Shown here: piece by piece, positions 1-56,400 of the stretch
Layout: the number at the start of each line of letters is the position of its first letter
How positions within the stretch are numbered: position 1 is the stretch's first letter
Position numbers and translations under genes: made by a program
The notes under the pieces: generated by a model
Databases searched by the model: none
Told to the model about the DNA's origin: nothing
Seen by the model: the letters and a program-made list of their open reading frames with translations, nothing else
Assembly (NCBI GenBank): GCA_011772865.1
Contig: WVYQ01000046.1
Location: 62,419 to 118,818 of the forward strand
DNA: 56,400 bases
Reading direction: 5' to 3'
Origin: Woeseiaceae bacterium
GTDB taxonomy: Bacteria > Pseudomonadota > Gammaproteobacteria > Steroidobacterales > Woeseiaceae

Positions 1-440
1 AGCAACGCCAGGTAGCGGTCGATGGCCTGTTCTTCATTCGGGAACATCCGCACGAGATTGTTGCGGAACTTGGTCTTGCCGGCCCGGGCGCAGAAGACCT
101 TGTCGCCCACGTAGAACCGGTCGTACTCGTTGTCCATCGGCGCCCATTCGAGCCGGCCCTCGGACACGAAGTCGAACATGCGCTTGTTGCGCGTCTGGGC
201 GCCGACGTCGCCGATGTAATGCACGCCCGGGTCCCACTCGTAGCCGTGGCGTTCGAACGAATGCGTGTAGCCGCCTGCCGTGTAGTGCTGCTCGAGCACG
301 CAGACTTTCCAGCCCAGTTCGGAGAGGAAGGCCGCGGTCGTCAGGCCGCCCATGCCCGAGCCGATGATCAGGGCGTCGTAGTCGGGATCCAGCCGATTGG
401 GCCGATAACGGCGGCCGATGCGCAGCGTAGACGGTTTCAT
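1..440 (-). CDS. Phytoene-dehydrogenase/retinol-saturase-like FAD oxidoreductase (N-terminal part, cut by window edge)
   Basis: Only the first 146 codons lie in the window; the gene runs off the left edge. Translation of the minus strand from the ATG at 440 gives a basic leader, then a dinucleotide-binding fold DALIIGSGMGGLTTAAFLSE, followed by LEQHYTAGGYTHSFERHGYE and DPGVHYIG. This arrangement (GxGxxG Rossmann motif, acidic end of beta-2, then a GG-x-x-H/S segment) is typical of the CrtI/CrtISO/RetSat flavoprotein family, which desaturates, isomerises or saturates polyene chains. The substrate cannot be told from the fragment. The gene is divergent from the sirtuin gene, with 37 bp between the start codons, so their promoters must overlap. 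Confidence 0.8.
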   Translation of the reverse strand, partial: MKPSTLRIGRRYRPNRLDPDYDALIIGSGMGGLTTAAFLSELGWKVCVLEQHYTAGGYTHSFERHGYEWDPGVHYIGDVGAQTRNKRMFDFVSEGRLEWAPMDNEYDRFYVGDKVFCARAGKTKFRNNLVRMFPNEEQAIDRYLAL

Positions 441-477
441 GGTTTCGCAGTATACCGATGTATGTTTCCATAGGCCG

Positions 478-1305
478 ATGAGCCCGATGACCGATTCGCT
501 CCGCAACTTCCTGGCCGACGTGCGCTCGCTCGTCGTCCTGAGCGGGGCCGGCGTCAGCACGGGTTCCGGCATACCCGACTATCGCGACCGCAACGGCGAC
601 TGGAAGCACAGCCAGCCGATTCAGTTCGGCGACTTCATGGCGAACGCGAGTTCGCGCCGTCGCTATTGGGCTCGCAGCTACATCGGCTGGCGGCGATTTT
701 CGGGCGCGAGACCCAACGCGGCGCATCATGCGCTTGCGCGTCTCGAGCAGACGGGCAAGGTCGATACGGTCATTACCCAGAACGTTGACCGTCTGCATTC
801 CGAGGCGGGCAGCCGCAAAGTCATCGACCTGCACGGCGATCTGAGCAAAGTGCGGTGCATGAGCTGTGAGGCCAGAACCGAAAGAAGCGATTTCCAGGTG
901 GCGCTCGAAGAAGCCAACCCCGGCTGGACGGCACAGGCGAAACAGTTTCGGGCCGATGGCGACGCGGAACTCGTCGAGAATGCCGAGGCCGATTTCAACG
1001 TGCCCGGCTGCACGGCGTGCAACGGCATCCTCAAACCCGATGTCGTGATGTTCGGCGAAAACGTGCCGCAAGGCCGTGTCGACGAGGGGATGCAAGCCGT
1101 CGAGCGGGCCGACGCGCTGCTCGTGGTCGGTTCGTCGCTGATGGTGTTTTCGGGCTTTCGTTTCGCGCGCCGGGCCGGGGAGCTGGGCAAGCCGCTGGCG
1201 ATCGTCAATCGCGGCCGCACGCGCGCCGACGACATCGCCGGACTCAAGGTCGACGAGGACTGTGCAAGCGTATTGCCGGCCGCCGTCGATTGTGTCGCGG
1301 GCTGA
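478..1305 (+). CDS. Sir2-family NAD-dependent protein deacylase (sirtuin)
   Basis: A 275-residue sirtuin. Visible motifs are the NAD-binding LSGAGVSTGSGIPDYRD (residues 21-37), TQNVDRLH (100-107), the catalytic His in DLHGD (His119), and a zinc ribbon made by CMSC (127/130) and CTAC (178/181). Family knowledge: these enzymes remove acyl groups from lysines, consuming NAD and yielding nicotinamide and O-acyl-ADP-ribose. The spacing between the two Cys pairs is long, as in the SIRT4-like class II group. ATG codons at 478 and 487 are both possible starts; an earlier in-frame TTG at 418 would lie inside the divergent gene and adds nothing conserved. The SDR-DUF2867 gene follows after 14 bp, suggesting co-transcription. 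Confidence 0.93.
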   Translation: MSPMTDSLRNFLADVRSLVVLSGAGVSTGSGIPDYRDRNGDWKHSQPIQFGDFMANASSRRRYWARSYIGWRRFSGARPNAAHHALARLEQTGKVDTVITQNVDRLHSEAGSRKVIDLHGDLSKVRCMSCEARTERSDFQVALEEANPGWTAQAKQFRADGDAELVENAEADFNVPGCTACNGILKPDVVMFGENVPQGRVDEGMQAVERADALLVVGSSLMVFSGFRFARRAGELGKPLAIVNRGRTRADDIAGLKVDEDCASVLPAAVDCVAG

Positions 1306-12716: not shown

Positions 12717-13976
12717 GTGTGGCCGTGTTCGGCCACAAAGGACAGGGCGCTGAACATACTGCTGATCATCCTGATCCTGCTGGTGGTGACCCGTACGTTC
12801 GGGGAGCTGGCCGAGCGTGGTCGTCTGCCGGCGCTGGTCGGCGAGCTCGTGGCCGGTATTTTTCTGGGTTACTTGCTGCAGCGCTTCCAGGCTTTGGCGC
12901 CCTCTGTCTGGTTCGCTGCAAACAGCGAGATTTTCGCAGGGCTTGCCGATCTCGGCATGTTTTTCCTGATGCTGCTGGCCGGTATCCGCATGGAGCCGCT
13001 GGATTTTGCGCGATCGTCGAAGTCAGCTGTCCTGATTGCCTTGGGTGGCATGGCGCTCCCGGTAGGCATCGGTTTTTTCCTGGGTCAGGCGATTCTGCCG
13101 GAGTCCGATTACAAGAATGCGCAGGCCCTGTTCATCGGTGTCGCTCTTGCGATTACCGCGGTGCCGGTCGCGGTTCGAATCTTCATGGATCTCGATGCCC
13201 TGGAGACCCGGATCGGAAAGGCCGTTATCGCCGCAGCACTTTGGGACGACGTTCTCAGCCTGTTATTGATGGCACTGCTGCTGGCTGCAATCGGCAGTCA
13301 GGCTACCGGTTCGTTCTCGCTGGATAATATCTTGCCCGTTATTGGCAAGGTATTGCTGTTCTTCGTCATCACGATCCCCGTCGGCCTGTATGTCTTTCCG
13401 TTGATCGGCAAATCCTTCCGGCACCTGAGCTTTCCCGAAGTCGATTTCAGCATGCTGCTGATCGGTGCGCTGTCATACGCCGTGCTTGCAGAAGTCCTGG
13501 ACCTGCATCTGATCATCGGTGCGTTCATGGCCGGTATGTTCTTCCACCCGAAGGTCGTCGAGCGGGGCATCTACGACCGGGTAGAACAGCAGATGTCGGG
13601 CCTGACACGTGGCTTCCTGGCGCCGATCTTCTTCGTTTCGGTGGGTTTTCATCTCGATTTCAGCAGCGTTGCCGCGGCGCCGGGATTTGTCGTTGTACTG
13701 ACCGCCCTGGCGCTCGCCAGCAAGTTGATCGGGTCGGGCATCCCCGCCTATTGGACAGGGTTTACAAAACGCGAGTCACTGCTGGTCGGCGTCGGTATGA
13801 GCGGCAGGGGGGCCGTTGAGCTCGTTATCGCAGGCGTCGCGCTCGAGGCCGGACTGTTCCTGCAGCCGGACCCGCCAGGCGTCATTGTCCAGAGCCTCTT
13901 CTCCGCGATCGTTATCATGGCAATCGTGACGACCGTGGCAACGCCAATCGCCCTCAGATTGTTGTGGAAAAAGTGA
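12717..13976 (+). CDS. Cation:proton antiporter, CPA2 (KefB/NhaS-like) family
   Basis: A 419-residue integral membrane protein with about 12 TM helices. The family motifs are LPALVGELVAGIFLGYLL, ADLGMFFLMLLAGIRM, ALAITAVPVAVRIFMDLD, LGKAVIAAALWDDVLS-type (seen as RIGKAVIAAALWDDVL, holding the conserved acidic ion-binding residue), and GAFMAGMFF. No C-terminal RCK/TrkA-N domain is present, so it is a bare transport unit exchanging monovalent cations for protons across the inner membrane. The start is uncertain: GTG 12717 has AAAGG only 4 nt upstream, and no ATG precedes the first helix. The 3' end overlaps the convergent TPR gene by 23 bp. Confidence 0.88.
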   Translation: MWPCSATKDRALNILLIILILLVVTRTFGELAERGRLPALVGELVAGIFLGYLLQRFQALAPSVWFAANSEIFAGLADLGMFFLMLLAGIRMEPLDFARSSKSAVLIALGGMALPVGIGFFLGQAILPESDYKNAQALFIGVALAITAVPVAVRIFMDLDALETRIGKAVIAAALWDDVLSLLLMALLLAAIGSQATGSFSLDNILPVIGKVLLFFVITIPVGLYVFPLIGKSFRHLSFPEVDFSMLLIGALSYAVLAEVLDLHLIIGAFMAGMFFHPKVVERGIYDRVEQQMSGLTRGFLAPIFFVSVGFHLDFSSVAAAPGFVVVLTALALASKLIGSGIPAYWTGFTKRESLLVGVGMSGRGAVELVIAGVALEAGLFLQPDPPGVIVQSLFSAIVIMAIVTTVATPIALRLLWKK

Positions 13977-15975
13977 TCGGGTTCGGGTCCGAATACCGTA
14001 TATAACCGTGTTCGCCACGATGCCCGACCATGATCGGGTGCTCGGTGGATACCGCATCGAGATCGAGGCGATTGAGCGGTCTGCCTTCTTCCTGCTTCGT
14101 GTCGTCGTACATGAAGCCGATGATCCATTGACCAGGGGGCGTCGATGCCGCGCGCTGGCAGGCAAAACTGAGCGATGCGACTTCGTGCCGCATCACCCCC
14201 AATTCCTCGAGGTGCCTGGTCAGGTTGGAGTAGGGCGCCGGGTCGAAATGCGTATACGACAGTAGCTGGATGAGACGCCCGAGGAATTCGGGTCGGTCGA
14301 GTGGCTGCAGCACAGCTTGCGCCTCCTCGACGCGACCCAGCGTCTTCAGCGCGAGCCACTGGATGTTGTTGTTTTCTATTGAGTAAGGTGAAAAGTCGAA
14401 ATCGGCGTACAGTTTGTCGGCGTCCGCCACGCGACCCTCGGCGCAGGCCTGTCGAATCCGCACCATGAGCTTCCAGGTCGGATCATCCGCGCTGTCGATG
14501 TAGCGTTGACCGATGTCCGCCGCCTCCTTGACCCTGTCACCGTAAAGAAGGATTCGATGGATCTGGTAGTAGTCACCGGCTGCAGGCGACGGGAGCGCCA
14601 GCATTCTTTCTGCGCCAGCCAGGCCGGCCTCGAGATCGAGGCGAGTTACGATCGCATAGAAATTCGACATCTGGTCGTTGTTCTCGAAATCGTGCGCCAC
14701 AGCCTCGTCTATAAAAGACCTGGCATCGTCGAAACGCGAAACTTCGATCAGGGCAGAAATATGGTCAACCCAGAAGTCGCGCTCATAAGGGTGGAACTCG
14801 AGCTGGGCGCGCGTGAGCTCGACGATATCGGTAAGGCGCATCTGGGCGCGGGCGCGAATAATTTCGGCGCCGAGTTTCGAATCGTCATCGCGTGCATAGC
14901 GCATCGCGCTGGCCGACGCTGCTGCGAATATGTCCTGCAGTTCAGTTTCGGAGAGATCTGCAGGCGCAGCCGTCATATTGGCCGGGCTCATCCAGCCGTA
15001 GACGATGGTGGCGAACAACAGGTGTGCCTCGGCGAACTCGGGGTCTTCGCGGATGATGTTCTCGTACAGGCGCAGCTGCTCGGCCGCAGCCGCCAGGTCC
15101 ACTTCGTCGAGAATCCGGATTGTCAGTTCGCGCAGCTGTACGAATAACTCCCAGGCTGCAATGGACTCGGTGCCGGCGGCTACCATTCTGCGCAGTTCTT
15201 CGGGATCCATTGCGGTATCGAGCAGTGACGCGATCTCGAATGCGATTCTTTCCTGGATATCGATCGAGTCATCGCTGCTCGCGTCGTAGGTCTCCGACCA
15301 CAGGTGCGCATCGTCGGATGCCCGGATTAACTGAGCGGTTACACGAATACGATCGCCGGCGCGCCGCACCGAGCCTTCGAGAATATGGGCCACATCGAGC
15401 TCTGCTGCGATGGCTTTTGCGTCTTTGTCCGAGTCGCGATAGGCAAAGGCGGAGGTACGGGACGCCACTCGCAGATCCCGGGTGCGCGCCAGGGCATTGA
15501 GGATTTCGTCCGTCAGGCCGTCGGCAAACCAGGCGTGGTCGCTGTCGGGACTGAAGTCGGCGAACGGCAATACGGCAATCGATTTATCGACGACGGCGCT
15601 GGCAGGCTCAGGAGACGATTCGGCAGCAGGCCGCTGCAGCTTGTCCCAGCCCAGCGCCGCAACGGCGATGACGAGCGCCACGAGGGTGATGCGGTTGAGG
15701 GTCTTTTTTGATCGGGGGTCCTTGGGCGTGTCCGCCGGCAAGTCTTTCGCCAGCTTCACGCCCTCCGGCGTCAGTTCGTAGGCCCAGGCGAGAAACAACG
15801 CGACAGGCAGGCCGAGCAGCAGCACGACGATGAGCATCTGCATGAACCAATCAGGCGCATTGAAGGCGTCGGCGGCCAGGTCTGCCACCTGCGCGACGAG
15901 CCAGCCCGCAACGATGTAGGCGATCGCAACGCGAAAAACATTGCGATAGCGAAGCTCCTCGATGAACCCCCGCAT
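13954..15975 (-). CDS. Membrane-anchored TolB-like/TPR protein with an amidohydrolase-derived C-terminal tail
   Basis: A 673-residue protein. Residues 1-110 hold a basic N-terminus (EELRYRNVFRVAIAYIVAGW) and three TM helices, so the rest is predicted to lie in the periplasm. Residues about 130-250 form a TolB-amino-terminal-like (COG5616/FlgO-like) domain: SIAVLPFADFSPDSDHAWFADG, then LRVASRTSAFAYRD and ILEGSVRRAGDRIRVTAQL. Helical TPR-like repeats follow up to FACQ (residue 607). The last 66 residues (TPPGQWIIGFMYDDTKQEE, RLDLDAVSTEHPIMVGHRG) instead match YtcJ-type amidohydrolases, see the separate entry. It is one of five paralogs in the window. Function unknown; a scaffolding or sensing role is inferred from TPRs. 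Confidence 0.85.
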   Translation of the reverse strand: MRGFIEELRYRNVFRVAIAYIVAGWLVAQVADLAADAFNAPDWFMQMLIVVLLLGLPVALFLAWAYELTPEGVKLAKDLPADTPKDPRSKKTLNRITLVALVIAVAALGWDKLQRPAAESSPEPASAVVDKSIAVLPFADFSPDSDHAWFADGLTDEILNALARTRDLRVASRTSAFAYRDSDKDAKAIAAELDVAHILEGSVRRAGDRIRVTAQLIRASDDAHLWSETYDASSDDSIDIQERIAFEIASLLDTAMDPEELRRMVAAGTESIAAWELFVQLRELTIRILDEVDLAAAAEQLRLYENIIREDPEFAEAHLLFATIVYGWMSPANMTAAPADLSETELQDIFAAASASAMRYARDDDSKLGAEIIRARAQMRLTDIVELTRAQLEFHPYERDFWVDHISALIEVSRFDDARSFIDEAVAHDFENNDQMSNFYAIVTRLDLEAGLAGAERMLALPSPAAGDYYQIHRILLYGDRVKEAADIGQRYIDSADDPTWKLMVRIRQACAEGRVADADKLYADFDFSPYSIENNNIQWLALKTLGRVEEAQAVLQPLDRPEFLGRLIQLLSYTHFDPAPYSNLTRHLEELGVMRHEVASLSFACQRAASTPPGQWIIGFMYDDTKQEEGRPLNRLDLDAVSTEHPIMVGHRGEHGYIRYSDPNPITFSTTI
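13957..14154 (-). pseudogene. Relic of a YtcJ-like amidohydrolase, read in frame as the tail of the TPR protein
   Basis: The 66 codons after the TPR domain encode PPGQWIIGFMYDDTKQEEGR, then PLNRLDLDAVSTEHPIMVGHRG, the order and spacing known from the substrate-entry part of YtcJ/AepA-type metal-dependent amidohydrolases (PPGxWIxGxGYDDT...R...LDxVxxxHPVxxxHRGGH). Similarity stops near 14020, where HRGEHGYIRYS replaces the expected HRGGHT...NS; switching frame at that point gives NTVIYG, consistent with an indel. Everything else of an amidohydrolase (metal ligands, about 500 residues) is missing, and the antiporter gene begins immediately. A deletion or recombination that joined two genes is the likely origin. 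Confidence 0.65.
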
Positions 15976-44696: not shown

Positions 44697-46556
44697 CTAA
44701 AAGCACTCGAAGCTGTCGTTTTGCAGTGGCCGACACAGGTCGGGCCAGCCGTATTCGCGATAAATCCGGTCGAGTCCCATGTCGATGAGCATCTGCCGAA
44801 ATTCGGGCTTTTTACGCATGTCGCTGAAGAACGGGTGCCACACGCGGTGGAAGCGGCCGAACGCGACCTCGAATTCTTCCGCGAGGACCTCGAGCGCGAA
44901 GTCCGGGTCACCGAAATGCGCCGCGATACTTGCCGTGATGATCCGGCCCTCGCCCGTAAGATTCACCGTTTCGGCGTAGCGACTCTTCAGGGTCTCGAGC
45001 AGGCGTGCGGGCGGTGCGTCAAATGCGTCGATAACCGGGGACAGCAAGGGCGCGTCGACCGGCGCAGCATTCGCATAGTCTCTCAGTAATTCTCCGGCTG
45101 CAGCATTGTCCTTCTCGGCAAGCGCGATGAAGAAGTGACGCTTGATGATGCTGGGCTCGTCCCGGGCAGGGAAACTGCTCGAGATTTCGAGAATCTCCCG
45201 CGCCTTGTCATACCGGCGGTTCTGGATATACAGCTCCGCCAGCGTCTGTGCGCGAAAATAGGCCAATGGCTCGATCTGGCGTCGAAGTTCGGCCCCGCGA
45301 ATGCCTTCGCGGATGTGGCCGAGACGATGGAAGAAGCCGTTTCGCGACATCTGGATTGTTATATCGCCTGGCGCCAGCTCCGCCGCTGTGTTTGCCGCAT
45401 CGAACGCTGCGGGAAAGTCGCCCAGTACGCGATTGAACGCGGCGAGACGCGCATAGGCCTCCGCAAGCGTCGGATCCAGCTCGATAGCCCGCATGACCAG
45501 GTCGCGACCGCGTTCAACATGCCGCTGTGTATCCGCGGGTGCTGTTTTGTCGGTCTGCAGACCCACCGAGACGCCACTGGCGAGCCATGCCTGGGCATAT
45601 TCGGGGTCAATCTCGGTTGCCCTTCGATAATGCGGTTCCGCATAAGCAGGGCCCAGTCTTGCCATGGCATCGCGCCCTTCGAGGAGAGCATCGTACGCCT
45701 GGATGTTGTCGGTACCGGTGCCGGGTAGATGGTTTCGCCCATCGACATCGAGTGCAATGCTCAGCGCGGCTGCAACGGCTTTGGCGATTTCTTCCTGGAC
45801 GTAAAAGATATTCCCGTATGTCTCGTCGAATGACCGGGACCAGACTTGTCGCTCAGCGCCTTCACGAATCTCGACGAGCTGCGCCGTAACGCGCAGCTGC
45901 TCGTCATCCTTGCGCACGCTGCCCTCGAGCAAGTACTCCACGCCGAGCTTGCTTGCGATAGCAGCCGAGGTTTCGGTCGTGCCTTTGAAGGTGAAAGACG
46001 ATCGTCGACTCGCGACGTTGAGTTCTTCGAGCTTGCCGAGCTGGTTCAACAATTCTTCCGCGATGCCATCGGCAATGTACTCGTGGTCCCTGTCCGCGCT
46101 CAGATCGGTGAACGGGAGGACGGCGATCGATTTGTTGGTCTGGTAGGCCGCGATTGCGCTGGACAGAATTTCAATTCGGATGTTCTTGGCGAACTCGAGT
46201 TCACGCTGCTTTTGTAATGCGAAGCGGTCAAAGGAGAAGAACGCGACGGCGACAGCAAGAATGATCATTACGATGCGGTCGAATCGCTTGACGGCCGTCA
46301 CGTCGACCTTCGGCGACCGGTCGACCTCGGAGTCTTTCCTGAGACCTGCTGGCGTGAGTTCAAATACCCAGGTGAGGACCAGTGTCGGGATAAAGCCGAC
46401 GGCGAAAATGATGACGACGATTCGCGCCGGTGTTTCGTCGTAACCAAACAACGGGAAAGTCGTGGCGGCTACCTGGATCAGTAGCCATGCCGTAACCGCG
46501 TAAGCCGTGCCAACACGGATAACATTCCGGCGTTTGAGTTCGGCGAAAAGCCCCAT
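44697..46556 (-). CDS. Membrane-anchored TolB-like/TPR protein (paralog 3)
   Basis: A 619-residue protein: MGLFAELKRRNVIRVGTAYA, three TM helices (third: IVMIILAVAVAFFSFDRFAL), TolB-like domain (SIAVLPFTDLSADRDHEYIA, LNVASRRSSFTFKG, YLLEGSVRKDDEQLRVTAQL), then TPRs. The three-TM layout predicts a periplasmic TolB/TPR part. The start MGLFAELKRRN matches its paralogs; ATG codons 12 and 15 nt earlier are possible. The TonB receptor gene follows directly, so the two may cooperate at the outer membrane (inference only). The TIR-TPR gene lies divergently, 294 bp away. Confidence 0.87.
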   Translation of the reverse strand: MGLFAELKRRNVIRVGTAYAVTAWLLIQVAATTFPLFGYDETPARIVVIIFAVGFIPTLVLTWVFELTPAGLRKDSEVDRSPKVDVTAVKRFDRIVMIILAVAVAFFSFDRFALQKQRELEFAKNIRIEILSSAIAAYQTNKSIAVLPFTDLSADRDHEYIADGIAEELLNQLGKLEELNVASRRSSFTFKGTTETSAAIASKLGVEYLLEGSVRKDDEQLRVTAQLVEIREGAERQVWSRSFDETYGNIFYVQEEIAKAVAAALSIALDVDGRNHLPGTGTDNIQAYDALLEGRDAMARLGPAYAEPHYRRATEIDPEYAQAWLASGVSVGLQTDKTAPADTQRHVERGRDLVMRAIELDPTLAEAYARLAAFNRVLGDFPAAFDAANTAAELAPGDITIQMSRNGFFHRLGHIREGIRGAELRRQIEPLAYFRAQTLAELYIQNRRYDKAREILEISSSFPARDEPSIIKRHFFIALAEKDNAAAGELLRDYANAAPVDAPLLSPVIDAFDAPPARLLETLKSRYAETVNLTGEGRIITASIAAHFGDPDFALEVLAEEFEVAFGRFHRVWHPFFSDMRKKPEFRQMLIDMGLDRIYREYGWPDLCRPLQNDSFECF

Positions 46557-46850
46557 ACGCCGCATCATAACTGCTTTTACGCAGTGTTGTGGAGTCAACG
46601 GCGATTAAAATCAATGACTTAGGCCAGTTCGCTTATCGTCGGATATCCGGACCCGGGCGTCACTCAGGTGCTGGTGGATTCCGCTCGGCCCGGCAATCGG
46701 CGCCAATAAAATGCCCGTCAATGGGGTCGCGATGAGCCCGCGACGCTGAGAACGAGTGACGTTCCCGTTGCTATCGCAATCTTCGCCGCTGGGTTATCCT
46801 TGCCCAACAAGAATAACAGGGGCAACAGATGAACCCAGGATCGGCCACGC
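46557..46850. other. Divergent promoter region between TPR paralog 3 and the TIR gene
   Basis: A 294-bp region with no gene-like frame. It is less GC-rich near 46590-46620 (GGCGATTAAAATCAATGAC), where a promoter may lie. No clear operator or RNA was seen. Confidence 0.4.
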
Positions 46851-48614
46851 ATGGCTGATGTTTTCGTATCCTATGCTCGCAGCGACAAGTCCCGTGTCGC
46901 GCCGCTGGTGAAGGCCATTCTCGCAAAAGGATGGACGGTCTGGTGGGATCCCGAAATTACGCCGGGCCAGGAATTCGATGACCAGATCGATGCCGAGATT
47001 GATGCCGCCAAGGCGGTGGTGGTCGTCTGGACACCGACGTCGGTTGCGTCACGATGGGTGCGGGGCGAGGCACGTGAAGGCGCCGACCGCGGCATCCTGG
47101 TGCCGGTCCGATTCGACAATGCGCGTCTGCCCATGGACGTGCGCGCTATCCACACGATCGATCTCGACAGCTGGGGCGAAGATCCCTCGAGTCCGCCAGT
47201 GCAGGAGTTGCTGGACGCGCTGGGCGGCATGATTGCGCGCGCCCCGGCACAGGCCGGGAGCCCGGCGGGCGGCGCGGCGTCGCCCGAGGAAAAGGAAGGG
47301 CCGCTCTTCAAAATTTGCGTGCTGCCTTTTGTCAACATGAGCGGCGACCCGGAGCAGGAGTATTTCAGCGACGGCATCACCGAAGACGTGATCACGGACC
47401 TGAGCAAGGTCTCGGCATTGGGCATCACTTCGCGAAACAGCGCGTTCATGTACAAGGGTGAGCATGTCGACATTCCGAAAGTGGCCAGCGATCTCAATGT
47501 GAGTCACGTATTGGAAGGCAGCGTCCGCAAGGCCGGTGGACGCGTTCGCATCAGTGCCCAGCTGGTCGATGCCAGCACCAACAACCACATCTGGGCAGAG
47601 CGCTATGATCGCGACTCGAGCGATATCTTCGCGCTGCAGGACGAGATTTCGGAAGCTATCGTCAAGGCGCTGAGGCTCAGGTTGCTGCCGGAAGAAAAGG
47701 AAGCCATCGAGCGGCGCAGCACCGGCAACGCAGAGGCCCACAACTTTTACCTGATGGCTCGGCAAGCTTACGTCAACAGCAACGACATTGACCCGCGCGC
47801 TTCCGAAGCCATCATCCGACTTTGCAAACGGGCTATCGAGATCGATCCGGAGTATGCGCTGGCCTGGACGCTGATGGCGATCGGGTACCGGCGGTTGCGC
47901 GAGGCTCACGGTGGTACGTCGGACGAGGGGATGGCCTCCGTTGATCGTGCGCTGGAACTGAACCCCAACCTTGCCGAAGCGCATGCGATCAAGGCCCAGC
48001 TCCTGCTGGGCGACGGTGAGGCCGAAGAGGCAGCGAAAGAGGTCGCCATTGCGCTCGAGGCCGATCCCGAGTCTTACGAAGTCAATCGTTCGGCAGGCCG
48101 CCTGAACTACCAGCTTCACGAATACGCCGAGGCAGCGCGCTACTATGAAAAAGCGGCCGCCCTGATGCAAACGGATCTCAACTCCTCCTCGATCCTGATC
48201 AGCATATACACGGCGCTGGGCGATTCTGCCGGCGCCCGCCGCGCCGGAGAGATGACGCTCGAACGCACCGAGGCCGTCCTCGAACACGACCCGAACAACT
48301 CCATGGTTGCGGGCTACAGCGCTTATGCGCTGGCAGCGCTCGGGGAGGGCGATCGCGCAAAGGCTCGCATGGAACGCGCGCTGTTGATCGACCCCGACAA
48401 CCTCAACATGCGTTACAACTTCGGCTGCGCCTTGTGTGTATATCTGCAGGACAAGGAAGCAGCGCTGGAAATGATGGGCCCGGTCTACGAAACGATTACC
48501 GAAACCTTCCTGCCCTATGCGAAGGCGGACCCGGACCTCGAGCTGCTGCGCGACGAACCGCGCTATATCGCCATGGTCGAAGCAGCCGAAGCGCGGCTGG
48601 CGAAAGAAAAATAG
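46851..48614 (+). CDS. TIR-TolB-like-TPR protein
   Basis: A 587-residue soluble protein without TM helix. Residues 1-125 are a TIR domain: MADVFVSYARSDKSRVAPLV, GWTVWWDPEITPGQEFDDQI, and SRWVRGEAREG, where Glu73 is four residues after Trp69 as is the catalytic Glu of NAD-cleaving TIR domains. Residues about 150-270 are the TolB-like domain (KICVLPFVNMSGDPEQEYFS, LGITSRNSAFMYKG, VLEGSVRKAGGRVRISAQL), then TPR repeats to about 560. It replaces the membrane anchor of its paralogs by TIR. A NADase or a scaffold role is possible; neither is proven. DUF885 follows after 37 bp. Confidence 0.9.
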   Translation: MADVFVSYARSDKSRVAPLVKAILAKGWTVWWDPEITPGQEFDDQIDAEIDAAKAVVVVWTPTSVASRWVRGEAREGADRGILVPVRFDNARLPMDVRAIHTIDLDSWGEDPSSPPVQELLDALGGMIARAPAQAGSPAGGAASPEEKEGPLFKICVLPFVNMSGDPEQEYFSDGITEDVITDLSKVSALGITSRNSAFMYKGEHVDIPKVASDLNVSHVLEGSVRKAGGRVRISAQLVDASTNNHIWAERYDRDSSDIFALQDEISEAIVKALRLRLLPEEKEAIERRSTGNAEAHNFYLMARQAYVNSNDIDPRASEAIIRLCKRAIEIDPEYALAWTLMAIGYRRLREAHGGTSDEGMASVDRALELNPNLAEAHAIKAQLLLGDGEAEEAAKEVAIALEADPESYEVNRSAGRLNYQLHEYAEAARYYEKAAALMQTDLNSSSILISIYTALGDSAGARRAGEMTLERTEAVLEHDPNNSMVAGYSAYALAALGEGDRAKARMERALLIDPDNLNMRYNFGCALCVYLQDKEAALEMMGPVYETITETFLPYAKADPDLELLRDEPRYIAMVEAAEARLAKEK

Positions 48615-48651
48615 GCAGGAGCCAATTCCCTGGCTGTTGGAGGCATACGTC

Positions 48652-50424
48652 GTGCCAAAACCAATTTTTGAGTTGACCATTACATGCCTGCTGGGGCTGG
48701 CGCTCGTATCCTGCTCCCCGGAGACGACTGAAGCGCCAGCCGAAACGACCGACAGCGCCGAGGCGGCAGTAATGGCGACAGCCGATACCTATATAGAGGC
48801 GTGGTTCGAGCATTTTCCGGAGATGGCGACGTTTTACCGGATCGAGGGCAAATCCCACGATCGCCTGACCGACAACACGCCCGAAGGTCGCGCAGCGTGG
48901 CAGGCGGTGGAGGACCAGCTGCTTGCCGATCTTGCGTCCGTGGATCCTGATCTGCTGGAAGGGTCGGATGCCTGGCTGCCTTACGGCATTTTGCTCGAGA
49001 GCCTCGAGGCATCGCGCGATTCCCGGGTATGCGAAACCCACGGCTGGAATATCGACCAGGTGTGGGGCTGGCAGATCTGGCTCGGTGAGCTGGCGACCGC
49101 ACAGCCGGCGTCGACAGACGAGGAGACGGCATGGGCGTTGGCCCGCTGGCAGCGGATTCCTGCGTATATCGACAACGAAATCGACAACCTCAGGGACGGA
49201 CTGGGAGCCGGGTACAGCGCACCGCAGCGCAATGTCAGCCTGGTCGTCGAACAGATCGACAGCCTGCTTGGCATGAATTCGAGCGAATCCCCGCTATATG
49301 CCCCGGCCGTCACGGCAGAAGACGACGCATTCAGCGAAGCGCTGGCGCAGTTGATTGAGGATGACATCTACCCGGCCATGCAGCGTTATCGCGACTTTCT
49401 CGTCGACGAGTACCACGACCGTGCGCGCACGGAAATTGCTGTTGCGGCCTTGCCGAACGGCGCAGCCTGCTACGTGGCGCAACTGCGGACATACACCACC
49501 TTGCCCTATGAGCCCGAAGAGATGTTCGAGGCCGGCAAGGAGGCTGTTGCCCTTCGGGAAGAGCAGATCACGGTTGTGGGCGAACGCGTCTTCGAAACCG
49601 GCGATCTGGCTGAAATACGAACACGCATGAACGATGACGAGTCGAATCGGTTCGAGTCGCGAGAGGAAGTGCTCGAGTACACGACTGCTGCCGTGAATCG
49701 GGCGCGCGAGGCAACGCCGCTGTGGTTCGGGAAAGTGCCCGAGGCCGACGTCGTCATCAAGCCCGTGCCCGAATACCAGGAGCAGAGTTCCACGTCCCGG
49801 TACGTCCCCGCATCCGATGACGGGGCGCTGCCCGGCACGTACTTTATCAACCTGTTCCAGCCCGAAGAACAGACTCGCGGTTCCGTGGAAAGCCTGTCCT
49901 TCCATGAAGCGTATCCGGGCCATCACCTGCAGATAGCGCTGGCGCAGGAACGCAGTGCTGCTCACCCGGTCACGCGCTATATCGGCAACTCGGGCTTCAT
50001 CGAGGGCTGGGCGAGGTACACCGAAACGCTCGCGAACGAGATGGGCCTGTACTCCTCGGATCGCAATACCCTGGAAATGCTGTCGGGGCTGCCGACCGGC
50101 ATGGTCGTCGACCCGGGCATTCATGCCATGGGGTGGAGCCGGGACGAGGCGATCGAGTACACGCTGAGCAAGCAGACTCACTGGACCCCGGAAGCGGCGG
50201 CCACCTACGTGGACCGGATCGTCGTCTGGCCGGGCCAGATGACGACCTACGGCGCCGGCGAGCTGGAGTTTATCCGCCTGCGCCGCCAGGCTGAGGCCAC
50301 ACTGGGTGACGATTTCGATATCCGCGAGTTTCACGACCAGGCGCTGGGCAACGGCTCGGTGACCCTGATCATGCTGCGGAGCCAGATCAACGACTGGCTG
50401 AACAGGTACGAGCCGGGAGACTGA
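48652..50424 (+). CDS. DUF885-family lipoprotein, putative metallopeptidase
   Basis: A 590-residue lipoprotein (lipobox ALVSC, Cys21). The DUF885 core is visible: YEPEEMFEAGKEAV, VESLSFHEAYPGHHLQIALA (HExxxGHH-type zinc site, His418-His425), IEGWARYTETLANEMG and the C-terminal GQMTTYGAGELEFIRLR. These proteins are gluzincin-like peptidases with poorly known substrates. GTG 48652 follows GGAGG by 8 nt, giving the lipoprotein signal. It is the second gene of a unit with the TIR-TPR gene, but is exported while the TIR protein is not. Confidence 0.9.
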   Translation: MPKPIFELTITCLLGLALVSCSPETTEAPAETTDSAEAAVMATADTYIEAWFEHFPEMATFYRIEGKSHDRLTDNTPEGRAAWQAVEDQLLADLASVDPDLLEGSDAWLPYGILLESLEASRDSRVCETHGWNIDQVWGWQIWLGELATAQPASTDEETAWALARWQRIPAYIDNEIDNLRDGLGAGYSAPQRNVSLVVEQIDSLLGMNSSESPLYAPAVTAEDDAFSEALAQLIEDDIYPAMQRYRDFLVDEYHDRARTEIAVAALPNGAACYVAQLRTYTTLPYEPEEMFEAGKEAVALREEQITVVGERVFETGDLAEIRTRMNDDESNRFESREEVLEYTTAAVNRAREATPLWFGKVPEADVVIKPVPEYQEQSSTSRYVPASDDGALPGTYFINLFQPEEQTRGSVESLSFHEAYPGHHLQIALAQERSAAHPVTRYIGNSGFIEGWARYTETLANEMGLYSSDRNTLEMLSGLPTGMVVDPGIHAMGWSRDEAIEYTLSKQTHWTPEAAATYVDRIVVWPGQMTTYGAGELEFIRLRRQAEATLGDDFDIREFHDQALGNGSVTLIMLRSQINDWLNRYEPGD

Positions 50425-50435
50425 ATCTCCGCGTG

Positions 50436-51977
50436 TCAGGAGGCGTTGCTGCGTAGCCTCGCCATCAAAGCCTGGAACCGCGGCTCGCCTCGCAAGGGAT
50501 CGAGATCCGGATCGTTGTCCATCCAGTCGGTGTCGTGGACTCCTCCGCGCTCCAGGCAATCCAGCGACTTCTCGATTTCACCGGCGCGCGCATAGAGACA
50601 GGCACCATTGTAGAGTGTGTCTTCGGAGTCCGGGTCGGCCTGCAGCGCGGCTTCCGCGAACTGCATTGCCTTGTCTCTGTCGCCCAGGTGATAGAAGGCG
50701 TTTGCGCCAAGCATCCAGGCACGGGCGTTTTCCGGGTGCTGTTCGACGTACAGGGCGGCCGTACGGGCACCGTCCTGCGCGGCCTGGAGCGCCCCGTCCG
50801 TGTCACCCAGGTGCTCGTAAACGCCGACGCTGACGTTAGGCGTCTGGAAGTCGTCCGGATCGATCTCGCGCGCCCGCTCCCAGAGTTCGATGACCCGCTC
50901 GAGCTTGCCTTGCTTGTACATGTAGCGGCCGAAATGGTAGTAGGCCTCGAAGTTGTCGGGATCGAGCTCGACGGCTTTCCTGAACGCCGCCTCGGCTTCC
51001 TTCCCGCGCGAACCGGCTGAGCAAACCACGATGCGGGCCACATAGCCGTCAGCGAGTTTCGGGCTCAGCGCGATGGCGCGACTGCTTGCCTCGTCGGCCG
51101 CATGCATGTCGGCGGCACCGGCACCGTAGAGCAGGACGCAGTAGGCGTGGCCCAGCGCCAGCCCGGCCCAGGCGCGGGCAAACTCCGGGTCGGCGATCGT
51201 GGCTTTCTCGAACATGCCGATGGCATTGCGGATGTTCTGGTGACCGAGACGGTTGAAGAAATTGCGGCCCCGCAGGAAGTACTCGTAGGCCTCGACGTCG
51301 TCCGTCGTAGGCGATGGCAGGGAGTCGGGCAGCAGCTTGACCTGCAGGACCCTGGCGATCTGCCGGGCGATGTCGTCCTGGATGGCGAACACGTCGTCGA
51401 GTTCGCGGTCGTAGGTCTGTGACCACAGGTGTGTGTCGGACGCGGCCTCGATGAGCTGCGCAGTAATTCGCAGGTTGTCGTCGGCTTTGCGCACACTGCC
51501 TTCGACGACGTAAGCCGTGCCAAGCCTCTCGGCCACGGTGTGGATGTCGGCGTTCGCGTTCTTCAGCGAGAAACTCGAGGTGCGCGAGCAAACGCGCAGG
51601 CCGGGCAGTTGCGCGAGGACGTTGAGCAACTCCTCGGTCAGGCCGTCCGAGAAATACTCCTGGTCCTTGCCCGGACTCATATCGGCGAACGGCAGTACGC
51701 CGACGGACTTGTCGTCGGCGCTCGCAGGGGCATTGTCCGTGTCGCGCCTGTCGCGGCGAATGCCGCCGGGCCCGGCCTCGTAGGCCCAGCTCAGTACCAG
51801 CGCGACCGGAAAGCCCACGATCAGGAAGGCCGCAACGAGCGTGACGGACCACTCCGGCAGCCCGAGGGCGGGGAACATGACGTCCGCGATCTGCATGACC
51901 AGCCAGCCGGCCACGAGATAGACGATCGCGACACGAAAGACCTTGCGGTCCTTGAGTTCTGTAAGGAATGCCTTCAA
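50436..51977 (-). CDS. Membrane-anchored TolB-like/TPR protein (paralog 5, two-TM form)
   Basis: A 513-residue protein: MKAFLTELKDRKVFRVAIVY, two TM helices (VYLVAGWLVMQIADVMF, LVAAFLIVGFPVALVLSWAY), then directly the TolB-like domain (SVGVLPFADMSPGKDQEYFS, LRVCSRTSSFSLKN, VVEGSVRKADDNLRITAQL) and TPRs. Unlike paralogs 1-3 it lacks the third TM helix, so the TolB/TPR part is predicted in the cytosol. TPR pairs such as FEAYYHFGRYMYKQGKLERV and ARAWMLGANAFYHLGDRDKA are clear. Convergent with the DUF885 gene (11 bp apart). Confidence 0.87.
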   Translation of the reverse strand: MKAFLTELKDRKVFRVAIVYLVAGWLVMQIADVMFPALGLPEWSVTLVAAFLIVGFPVALVLSWAYEAGPGGIRRDRRDTDNAPASADDKSVGVLPFADMSPGKDQEYFSDGLTEELLNVLAQLPGLRVCSRTSSFSLKNANADIHTVAERLGTAYVVEGSVRKADDNLRITAQLIEAASDTHLWSQTYDRELDDVFAIQDDIARQIARVLQVKLLPDSLPSPTTDDVEAYEYFLRGRNFFNRLGHQNIRNAIGMFEKATIADPEFARAWAGLALGHAYCVLLYGAGAADMHAADEASSRAIALSPKLADGYVARIVVCSAGSRGKEAEAAFRKAVELDPDNFEAYYHFGRYMYKQGKLERVIELWERAREIDPDDFQTPNVSVGVYEHLGDTDGALQAAQDGARTAALYVEQHPENARAWMLGANAFYHLGDRDKAMQFAEAALQADPDSEDTLYNGACLYARAGEIEKSLDCLERGGVHDTDWMDNDPDLDPLRGEPRFQALMARLRSNAS

Positions 51978-52024
51978 GCCCGGCCCCCGGTTTTTCGGCG
52001 ATTATACGCGTTTGGGTGGCCGGT

Positions 52025-54390: not shown

Positions 54391-56400
54391 TCAGGCCACG
54401 GGAACCCACACCAGCTTGGCCTCGGCCACCCGGATGTCGTTCTTCTCGAGACCAATCTCGAGCGTTTCGATCGCGGCGGCCAGCTCGTCATGTTCCTGCT
54501 GGATGCTCACCAGCTCATCCTGCAGGTCGCGTTCCAGTTCAATCAGGTCTTTCCGCTTTGCGTCGGCTTTTTGCCGGGCGGTCGCCAGCCGGACCTGGGC
54601 TTTCTTTGACGCCGCCCTGCGCGATGCGGCCCTGTTCAAGGTTCGCGAGCTCACTCTTCCTTTCAGCAGGCCGCCCAGCAAGTCACCGACGCCCGACATC
54701 ACCTCGGTCTGAGTGCGGGTCGATACATCCACCTGCAGTTCGGTGACCCGGGCATCGGCCGACGAGATCTGGTCCTGCAAACGGTCGATGCGCCTGGCGT
54801 ATTTATCGCGCAACTGGCTGACCTTGACGTCGGCAGCCTCGTCCGCGGCCTGCTCGCATCGTGCCCTGAAGTTCTCCTCGCTCTCGCCGACACGCGAATA
54901 CAGTTTCAGGCCCGGGCACTTCCAGATCTCGATGCTGCGGTTGGCGGCCAGGTAGTTCTTGATGTCAGAGCGCAGGCGGGTCCAGAACGTCTTGTTCTGA
55001 AGCCTGGTGTTGCCCAGCTGGTAACTCGCGCCAGCCGGCGCTTCTGACTGGAAATCCCGATCGTCATGATCGACCGACAGGACGTCCTCGACATCGATGA
55101 GGCCGTCCAGCGGAAAGATCACGGCCTCGTAGACTTCGTTGTGGCTGACATCGGCCCGGGTTTCGTCGTACAGCAGTTGCACGTTCACGGCAGCCGCCGG
55201 TGCAAAGGATGTTCCGGTCGGATCGGCTCCGAGGTTCGCGGCCCAGGGCGCGGCCGGGTCGAGGTAAACCACCTCGATGCCCGCGGCGACCGGCGGGGCG
55301 ATCGCTGCCGGGGCCGCCGTCGCCTCGACCTCGGCGACCGGCGCAGGTTGCTCGGCCTCGGGCGCTTGTGGAGCGTCCTTCTTGTACGGCTCCATCAATG
55401 CAGTCACTTGCGCCCGGGTAAACGGTCCGAAGCGGTAACACATCGAGTGCCGCCGGCTGAGCACGGTCTGTTTGTTCTTCTTGGCCAGGTGCAGCACGAA
55501 CTGGCGCTTCTCGAGGTTGGAGATGCGCGCGTCGAGATCCGGCATGCCGCCCGATATCCCGTCGAGAATGCGGCGCTTGTCGTTGTCGGTCTGCAAGCGC
55601 CCGACGATCCAGGCGCCGGCGTTCGACTGGGCCTTGTAGTCGATGTCGACCGGGTTCTGGGTGACGAGGACCAGCCCGACACCAAAGGCACGGGCTTGTT
55701 TCAAAATGGTGAGGATCGGTTTCTTGGACGGCGGCTCGGCGGACGGGGGCGCATAGCCGAAGGCCTCGTCCATGTAGATCAGTGCGCTCAGTTCGGAGGT
55801 GCCCGGCTTCGAGCGCATCCAGGTGACCACCTTCGACAGCAGCAGCGTGACGACGAACTGGCGTTCTTTCTCGTTGAGGTGCGCCATGTAGATGATGGCG
55901 CAGGGCGTTTTACCGTCGGCTCCGAGCATGTTTTCGATATCGAGCGGCTCGCCCTCGAGCCACGAGGCCATCGACGGGGAGGCGAGCAGGCTGTTGAGCT
56001 GCAGGGCCAGCTTCATGCGCTGCTTTTCGGGGAAGAACATCTCGAGGTCGAACACCCCCAGCTTGCGGAACGGCGGTTTCGGAATCTGGCCAACCAGCGT
56101 CGCCAGGTCGAGGTCTTTGCCCTGGCGCCACCAGGTTTCAATGATCGTGGCGATCAGGATGTGCTCGGGCCCGGATACGGGGTCGGATTTGATGCCGGCA
56201 AGTACGAGAATGGACGAGACCAGGCCTTCGATCTCGTCGCGAATGGTCTCGGCGCTGTCCTGCCAGTCCAGGTCGGGCGCCTTGAGCGACCCCAGCACGT
56301 TGATCGGGATACCGATCGATGAGCCCGGGGTGTAGATCTTGAACTCGGTGTTGTCGCGAAGCTTTGCGATCCGTTCCGGGGTGATGCCGTCCCCGGCAAG
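54391..56400 (-). CDS. HerA/DUF87-like ATP-binding protein with C-terminal coiled coil (N-terminus beyond window)
   Basis: At least 669 residues; the reading frame is open to the right window edge, so the start and Walker A motif are not in view. Visible are the HerA-type region FKIYTPGSSIGIPINVLGSL, the Walker B ALIYMDEAFGYAPP, and sensor-like LVLVTQNPVDIDYKAQSNAG followed by IVGRLQTDNDKRRILDG. A Pro/Ala-rich linker (about 330-370 of the visible part) leads to a globular segment and a long coiled coil (VKVSQLRDKYARRIDRLQDQ, LIELERDLQDELVSIQQEHD). HerA-like ATPases translocate DNA or act on protein-DNA complexes; the true role here is unknown. Confidence 0.85.
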   Translation of the reverse strand, partial: LAGDGITPERIAKLRDNTEFKIYTPGSSIGIPINVLGSLKAPDLDWQDSAETIRDEIEGLVSSILVLAGIKSDPVSGPEHILIATIIETWWRQGKDLDLATLVGQIPKPPFRKLGVFDLEMFFPEKQRMKLALQLNSLLASPSMASWLEGEPLDIENMLGADGKTPCAIIYMAHLNEKERQFVVTLLLSKVVTWMRSKPGTSELSALIYMDEAFGYAPPSAEPPSKKPILTILKQARAFGVGLVLVTQNPVDIDYKAQSNAGAWIVGRLQTDNDKRRILDGISGGMPDLDARISNLEKRQFVLHLAKKNKQTVLSRRHSMCYRFGPFTRAQVTALMEPYKKDAPQAPEAEQPAPVAEVEATAAPAAIAPPVAAGIEVVYLDPAAPWAANLGADPTGTSFAPAAAVNVQLLYDETRADVSHNEVYEAVIFPLDGLIDVEDVLSVDHDDRDFQSEAPAGASYQLGNTRLQNKTFWTRLRSDIKNYLAANRSIEIWKCPGLKLYSRVGESEENFRARCEQAADEAADVKVSQLRDKYARRIDRLQDQISSADARVTELQVDVSTRTQTEVMSGVGDLLGGLLKGRVSSRTLNRAASRRAASKKAQVRLATARQKADAKRKDLIELERDLQDELVSIQQEHDELAAAIETLEIGLEKNDIRVAEAKLVWVPVA

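Follow-up and report, generated by a model that had tools for sequence, protein, structure and literature searches.

The question raised by the DNA stretch analyzed here is what function is served by a group of related genes in it and why so many of them stand together. The stretch, hereafter the window, comprises 56,400 nucleotides of a Woeseiaceae bacterium genome (assembly GCA_011772865.1, contig WVYQ01000046.1, positions 62,419 to 118,818) and contains five open reading frames (ORFs) encoding TolB-like/tetratricopeptide repeat (TPR) proteins, P0001–P0005, three of which (P0003–P0005) are located inside 7.3 kb (Table 1). In an earlier note on this DNA, they were described as paralogs with one common domain and TPR tails behind variable heads, and this description was borne out. 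All 10 pairs among the five proteins were significant in BLASTP (E = 2 × 10−35 or better, identity 29–38%), and their alignment contained a core of approximately 130 residues (VLPF, DG, SR-S, EG-V, W, Q-I), in which 24 columns were invariant and the mean column identity was 58%. The core is followed by TPRs in each protein, which is the architecture of the TolB-like/TPR family, presumably a COG5616-like one. According to hydropathy, the heads consist of three transmembrane (TM) helices in P0001–P0003 and two in P0005; P0004 carries a TIR domain without any TM helix. A Pfam scan of the five proteins returned mainly TPRs, with families above the cut-off in P0002–P0005 and only below it in P0001 (TPR_19, 21.2 vs. 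25). A search with a profile of the core recovered the family (37 copies in the genome); the Pfam model TolB_N (PF04052) reached only a sub-threshold score in P0003 (18.0 bits, cut-off 22.4), and the other four proteins were not listed at E ≤ 0.01. A sequence search of the PDB with the core returned a pair of FlgO-domain proteins (both at E = 0.4) as well as CcmE (E = 0.9). Since the protein database entry from the same contig has 619 amino acids, P0003 probably starts at position 46556, the end given in the earlier note.

The explanation favoured here, which we hold with middling confidence, is that P0001–P0005 belong to a family of modular one-component sensors with a CadC-like body, which is spread over the whole genome and whose members are gained and lost rapidly. 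This constant body would be made up of an alpha/beta TolB-N-like core and a TPR superhelix; in the models, it has a two-part fold of the periplasmic sensor type, common in its overall course with the periplasmic domain of CadC (3LY7, 3LY8, 3LY9, 3LYA), and the mean pLDDT (predicted local distance difference test) of the AlphaFold model of P0004 was 87.9. In CadC, a ToxR-like one-component regulator, the periplasmic domain is reported to provide the input without any need for phosphorylation (PMC3096576). The window proteins differ from CadC in that four of them carry a TM anchor and P0004 a TIR domain instead of the DNA-binding head (a winged-helix head was found in 0 of the 5 window proteins and in 3 of the 37 genome copies), the aligned part shows 15% sequence identity, and the scores of the NCBIfam CadC model did not exceed 35.4 bits (cut-off 400). 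The earlier note had offered a sensing or scaffolding system, and it is the fold alone that speaks for sensing. Tol-Pal TolB has an N-terminal domain of similar fold, but it continues with a beta-propeller, whereas the window proteins continue with TPRs; its model TIGR02800 (cut-off 343 bits) matched P0002 and P0003 at 20.9 and 20.1 bits, respectively, in the core region only. The same architecture is found under the JGI name 'TolB-like protein', which carries no function (7258 proteins at E ≤ 1 × 10−30 among 8000 candidates scored for P0003). If the favoured explanation is true, a family for which databases offer just the name 'TolB-like protein' or the misleading one 'adenylate cyclase' gains a testable meaning, namely an output set by the head, and one proteobacterium carries dozens of one-component sensors beyond the usual two-component census.

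Table 1. Positions of the TolB-like/TPR genes, their parts and associated features (window coordinates; for the SLATT-type genes, coordinates of the locus named)
Feature	Position	Strand	Description
P0001	13954..15975	-	three-TM anchor, TolB-N-like core (~residues 129–260), TPR-like tail
P0002	29743..31734	-	three-TM anchor, core, TPR tail
P0003	44697..46556	-	three-TM anchor, core, TPR tail; ORF opens at 46598
P0004	46851..48614	+	TIR head, core, TPR superhelix; without TM helix
P0004 TIR domain (residues 4–110)	46860..47180	+	Pfam; PDB sequence match to SARM1/TIR-1 TIR domains
P0004 TolB-N-like core (residues 153–290)	47307..47720	+	core alignment, AlphaFold model
P0004 TPR superhelix (residues 294–586)	47730..48608	+	Pfam, AlphaFold model
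P0005	50436..51977	-	two-TM anchor, core and TPR tail, with a body predicted to be cytosolic
Block 90% DNA-identical to genome G018	50435..52023	.	P0005 gene and 46 bp upstream with TATAAT box; flanks unrelated
SLATT-type gene	L059:2055-3806		'hypothetical' or DUF4231 in databases
SLATT-type gene	L065:13638-15407		'hypothetical' or DUF4231 in databases
SLATT-type gene	L067:11836-13662		'hypothetical' or DUF4231 in databases
SLATT-type gene	L068:5838-7661		'hypothetical' or DUF4231 in databases
SLATT-type gene	L069:11819-13582		'hypothetical' or DUF4231 in databases

The heads of the 37 copies in the window genome (G000) comprised 29 with three TM helices, a class assigned by exclusion in which 28 of 29 members show three hydropathy peaks, 3 with two TM helices, 2 with a winged helix and one TM helix, 1 with a winged helix and three TM helices, 1 TIR head and 1 head cut by a contig end; Trans_reg_C was confirmed by Pfam in the three winged-helix copies. 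Cyclase heads (Guanylate_cyc, Pfam) were found in other bacteria, in all seven that were scanned among the 47 non-TIR relatives (the loci studied were the 80 best from a total of at least 593 relatives, a set skewed to P0004-like ones). In these adenylate/guanylate cyclase-core-TPR proteins of rhizobia and other taxa, a class III cyclase head stands instead of the TIR domain or TM anchor, and the body is 37–51% identical to that of P0004 in most of the non-TIR loci kept. The positive charges of the three-TM copies (3.8 / 0.6 / 5.5 / 1.2) place the bodies in the periplasm. One copy (G000:C45:245029-247404) has a winged-helix domain ahead of a three-TM anchor, which fixes the orientation of the anchor; such a chimera requires the same orientation as in CadC and supports periplasmic three-TM bodies. 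From the positive-inside rule and this chimera, we infer that the three-TM bodies are periplasmic and those of the two-TM and TIR copies cytosolic.

The head would determine both the membrane side and the output. In the three-TM copies (29 of 37, including P0001–P0003), the periplasmic body would signal the state of the envelope to a partner protein or control such a partner, whereas in the two-TM copies (three, including P0005), it would lie at the inner membrane face; TIR (P0004), winged-helix and cyclase heads would give NAD-type, transcriptional and cAMP/cGMP outputs, respectively. Most likely, a protein or small ligand would bind the fast-diverging TPR part and change the oligomeric state of the core, upon which the head would switch; in TM-only copies, the head would act by contact with a membrane partner, and no recognisable output domain was found in P0001–P0003, the three three-TM copies scanned. 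Mean identity decreased from the core (41.8%) to the anchor (34.7%) and the TPR tail (18.7%). The low identity of the tail is as expected if the tail carries specificity, which it may do; weak constraint on the tail would look alike.

The best matches of the core alone were FlgT (3w1e), GNA1162 (4hrv), TolB, PelC and LpoB. Together with the predicted periplasmic location of the three-TM bodies, they agree with another explanation, according to which the proteins are envelope-assembly scaffolds whose TolB-N/PelC/FlgT-like core forms rings or binds Pal-like partners and whose TPRs recruit envelope enzymes. This is unlikely in our opinion, as the same body is found behind TIR, winged-helix and cyclase heads and is predicted to be cytosolic in the two-TM copies, and a range of 0–37 copies per same-genus genome is ill-suited to a core assembly part.

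The window holds 5 of the 37 copies of the genome (3.26 Mb, 46 contigs, 84.6% complete), and two further copies lie just to the right of it on the same contig (C2:119639 and C2:124511). In 24 same-genus genomes, 0–33 copies each were found, with up to 47 in one genome of the same order; these counts rest on draft, partly incomplete genomes. At the class level, 36 of the 276 genomes searched (those at least 90% complete and the window's own) had any match at E ≤ 1 × 10−10, and, with at most 15 candidates scored per genome, this search shows presence and low counts only. The expansion belongs to the lineage and varies strongly within it, and the window is a fragment of a genome-wide family. The copies are nevertheless clustered: 15 adjacent pairs were located within 20 kb of each other vs. 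6.4 expected under uniform placement (p = 0.0002), and the densest 56.4-kb span contained seven copies (p = 0.0004; 5000 draws, with the 31 contigs without a copy given approximated equal lengths). Adjacent copies were no closer to each other than other pairs (normalised bit score 0.150 vs. 0.155, p = 0.61), and in none of the 15 adjacent pairs was one copy the best hit of the other; recent tandem duplication was therefore rejected as the source of the cluster. In the tree of the 37 copies, the window proteins fell into different groups, except P0004 and P0005, which were grouped together with C14_30k and C44_37k (support 89/66); the group of P0002 (97/60) included C3_27k, C45_251k and C2_124k, of which C2_124k lies 31 kb from P0002 on its contig. 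Of the expansion that the earlier note described as local and took to suggest a lineage-specific system, the lineage-specific character was supported, and the local one was not.

The only close duplicate pair in the genome (C28:2804 and C32:31811, 84% identical) is located near the ends of two contigs (C28:2414-4252 and C32:30758-32677) and may represent either tandem neighbours separated by a gap in the assembly or a repeat at contig ends. Regular tandem arrays were observed in other genomes, for example four cores spaced 1842 bp apart in G032:C45. The upstream regions of the 37 copies (one a contig stub) contained no shared motif; as a candidate promoter element, TATAAT was present in 1 of 37 regions vs. 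0.67 expected by shuffling.

Each copy had also been supposed to stand next to a different client gene, and the window copies do have different neighbours: besides the TolB-like genes, the interval 41.9–56.4 kb contains genes for a TonB receptor, a DUF885 protein, a nucleotidase, a 203-amino-acid ORF and a HerA-like ATPase. Client-specific scaffolds, each dedicated to its adjacent gene (antiporter, TlpA, TonB receptor, DUF885 peptidase, nucleotidase), are nonetheless very improbable, because neighbour linkage is lacking where orthologs allow comparison, that is, for P0001, P0004 and P0005. The antiporter and ion channel genes were absent at all four loci of P0001 relatives, the nucleotidase and DUF885 genes at six loci of P0005 relatives, the 90% identical one included, and the TonB receptor, DUF885, nucleotidase, SLC13, hyp43 and HerA-like genes at all 34 TIR loci of P0004 relatives (several relatives' contigs are only 4–8 kb long, so that flanks are partly out of view). 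The 37 copies without a shared upstream motif likewise speak against such clients. The ortholog searches covered 60 same-genus genomes, with the best candidates per genome scored at strict E limits of 1 × 10−80 or 1 × 10−90; the best relatives of P0001 were found in G057 (66%), G009 (52%), G072 (49% and 47%) and G056 (47%), and none exceeded 48% and 45% identity for P0002 and P0003, respectively. The closest ortholog recovered for any window copy is that of P0005 in G018 (90% identical), which has an AcrB-type efflux gene on either side (ACR_tran, 209 and 571 bits).

Between the window genome and G018, 14 of the 37 copies were reciprocal best hits, although several G018 flanks end at contig ends. 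Several neighbours were kept in two of the 14, namely in a long conserved block at C13:205585 and at the winged-helix copy C39:73631, which is a point for the client idea; a third pair (C3:909) had one neighbour match of 27% identity only. In G018, moreover, one TolB-like copy has a DUF1295 gene nearby, as P0002 has in the window, but the gene order is different, and a DUF885 relative (43%) lies approximately 4 kb from a weak core match. Ordinary window genes were scattered in G018 as well, and since gene order between the two genomes is generally poor, losing its neighbours does not set this family apart.

The same comparison bears on the explanation that these are accessory or conflict genes, i.e., laterally spread single-gene units gathering in variable regions, perhaps surface-recognition or anti-phage sensors with variable TPRs. 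It is consistent with the divergence of the clustered copies and with P0005, which is present in G018 as the ORF plus 46 bp at 90% DNA identity, compared with 81% for the HerA-like gene in the same genome. Full-length relatives of P0004 were found in 4 of the 60 same-genus genomes (three at 76–78% and one at 52%; none in G018 at that threshold). This sparse occurrence, together with identities of 70–74% in Rhodanobacter and Lysobacter records, suggests lateral transfer of P0004, as judged from sequence comparison. The multi-TIR loci and SLATT-type neighbours of other genomes described below point in the same direction. On the other hand, PADLOC gave a weak result for P0004 (TIR parts only) and nothing for P0001–P0003 and P0005, no repeats bracketing the P0005 block were present in either genome, the window contains no tRNA gene, little gene order is conserved between G000 and G018 even among ordinary genes, and no SLATT relative was found in the other stretches examined, G000 and G018 included. 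On balance, we consider the accessory-gene explanation rather unlikely. Carriage by plasmids or phages was also considered and rejected: the 7.3-kb region had no near match in plasmids; the best plasmid relatives of P0004 match residues 149–587 only, those with a named cyclase annotation being rhizobial or from Microvirga, with bodies 40–46% identical to that of P0004 in the plasmid cyclase-core-TPR matches listed; and P0004 had four relatives in viral contigs, none of them with a match to its TIR domain.

P0004 has a TIR fold according to Pfam (TIR_2, 80.3 bits, cut-off 28) and to its PDB sequence matches (E = 1 × 10−4 to 5 × 10−4). Its S.WV..E motif (residues 67–73) is more than 90% conserved in 57 aligned TIR sequences, and the glutamate is the putative catalytic residue. 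Its full-length relatives are TIR-TPR proteins in Rhodanobacter, Luteimonas and Woeseiaceae records (72–94% identical in the 120 listed), which in some genomes form tandem arrays, some with a SLATT-type neighbour, whereas P0004 stands alone. Two to seven TIR-core-TPR genes on one strand were found in 9 of the 34 TIR loci (L060, L062, L065, L066, L067, L069, L079, L081 and L134; L137–L139, which repeat L056–L058, are not counted), head to tail in eight of them and approximately 3 kb apart in L069. In the six multi-TIR loci of closer relatives, the TIR and core parts were 74–98% identical between copies and the TPR parts 60–71% (one pair 84%). The identity at four-fold sites within the loci, pooled per locus and domain, was 32–69% vs. 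40–50% between loci, so that these loci appear old, and very recent gene conversion was rejected. At the TIR four-fold sites of the closer relatives, it was somewhat higher (53–65% vs. 47% between loci), and older homogenisation of the TIR heads may have occurred. The four tandem genes of Croceibacterium salegens (L134:4706-11881) have TIR parts 80–92% alike, cores 33–74% and TPRs 15–35% (amino acid identity 84, 45 and 21%, respectively), which looks like TIR heads on unrelated bodies, arisen by head shuffling or homogenisation.

A protein of approximately 590 amino acids with DUF4231/SLATT_3 and SLATT_1 regions, whose NCBIfam SLATT scores are below the curated cut-offs, is a recurring neighbour of the TIR genes. 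Its gene was found at 5 of those 22 TIR loci whose downstream sequence extends for 1.9 kb or more and at none of the 47 non-TIR loci, a weak control since many of these come from other taxa. Its sequences form two groups approximately 29% identical to each other, both adjoining TIR genes. The gene was present at all three multi-TIR loci of closer relatives with downstream sequence and absent at those of more distant relatives (L079, L081 and L134), near P0004 in the window and, within 10 kb, at the same-genus loci L057 and L058. No plasmid (E = 1 × 10−10) or phage (E = 1 × 10−8) match to this neighbour and no confirmed relative in viral contigs were found. On visual inspection alone, its N-terminal part possibly resembles SLOG; it had neither a match in the PDB at E ≤ 1 nor a SLOG match in Pfam. 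SLATT proteins are described as predicted membrane effectors regulated by ADP-ribose derivatives and are linked to TIR genes in phages (PMC9503650). With Thoeris (ThsB TIR/ThsA), P0004 has in common the TIR head and the notion that a partner senses a nucleotide signal, but its TIR domain is fused to the core and TPRs (best PADLOC ThsB E = 1.4 × 10−5), and no PADLOC match to a ThsA-like effector (SIR2/macro/TM plus SLOG) was found among the genes at 41.9–56.4 kb.

As a wider proposal, which is possible but doubtful, a CadC-type body common to at least five head classes would have expanded to dozens of interchangeable sensors with fast-diverging TPRs, and the TIR branch would be a new Thoeris-like system. 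At each locus of this system, two to seven TIR-core-TPR sensors, alike in TIR and core but divergent in their TPRs, would make a nucleotide product that opens the membrane protein encoded next to them, which contains two SLATT-like repeats; in this view, P0004 is a member that stands alone. The multi-TIR loci with the SLATT-type protein are a concrete candidate for a defence or stress system outside the window. No paper on TIR-TolB-TPR proteins or on the present expansion was found in a literature search whose scope excluded subscription papers, and a TolB-TPR protein is not mentioned in the excerpt of PMC7159879.

Several minor observations should be added. At the same-genus locus L057:10001-14542, a TIR gene is followed after approximately 1 kb by another TolB-like/TPR gene, similar to P0003/P0004 in a different orientation. 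A sirtuin-like ORF, named by eye, lies at window positions 418–1305, 45 kb from P0004. The HerA-like ATPase gene (window 54391–56298) was recognized by PADLOC (HerA, E = 5 × 10−10) and had no Pfam match at 1 × 10−5; its 81% DNA-identical counterpart in G018 lies on another contig than the P0005 ortholog, with different genes next to it. Finally, the last 60–75 residues of P0001 (window 13954–14190) resemble an amidohydrolase (Amidohydro_3, 23.5 bits, cut-off 29.7), and its closest relatives align only up to approximately residue 610; this end is probably left over, in frame, from a neighbouring gene that has been lost.

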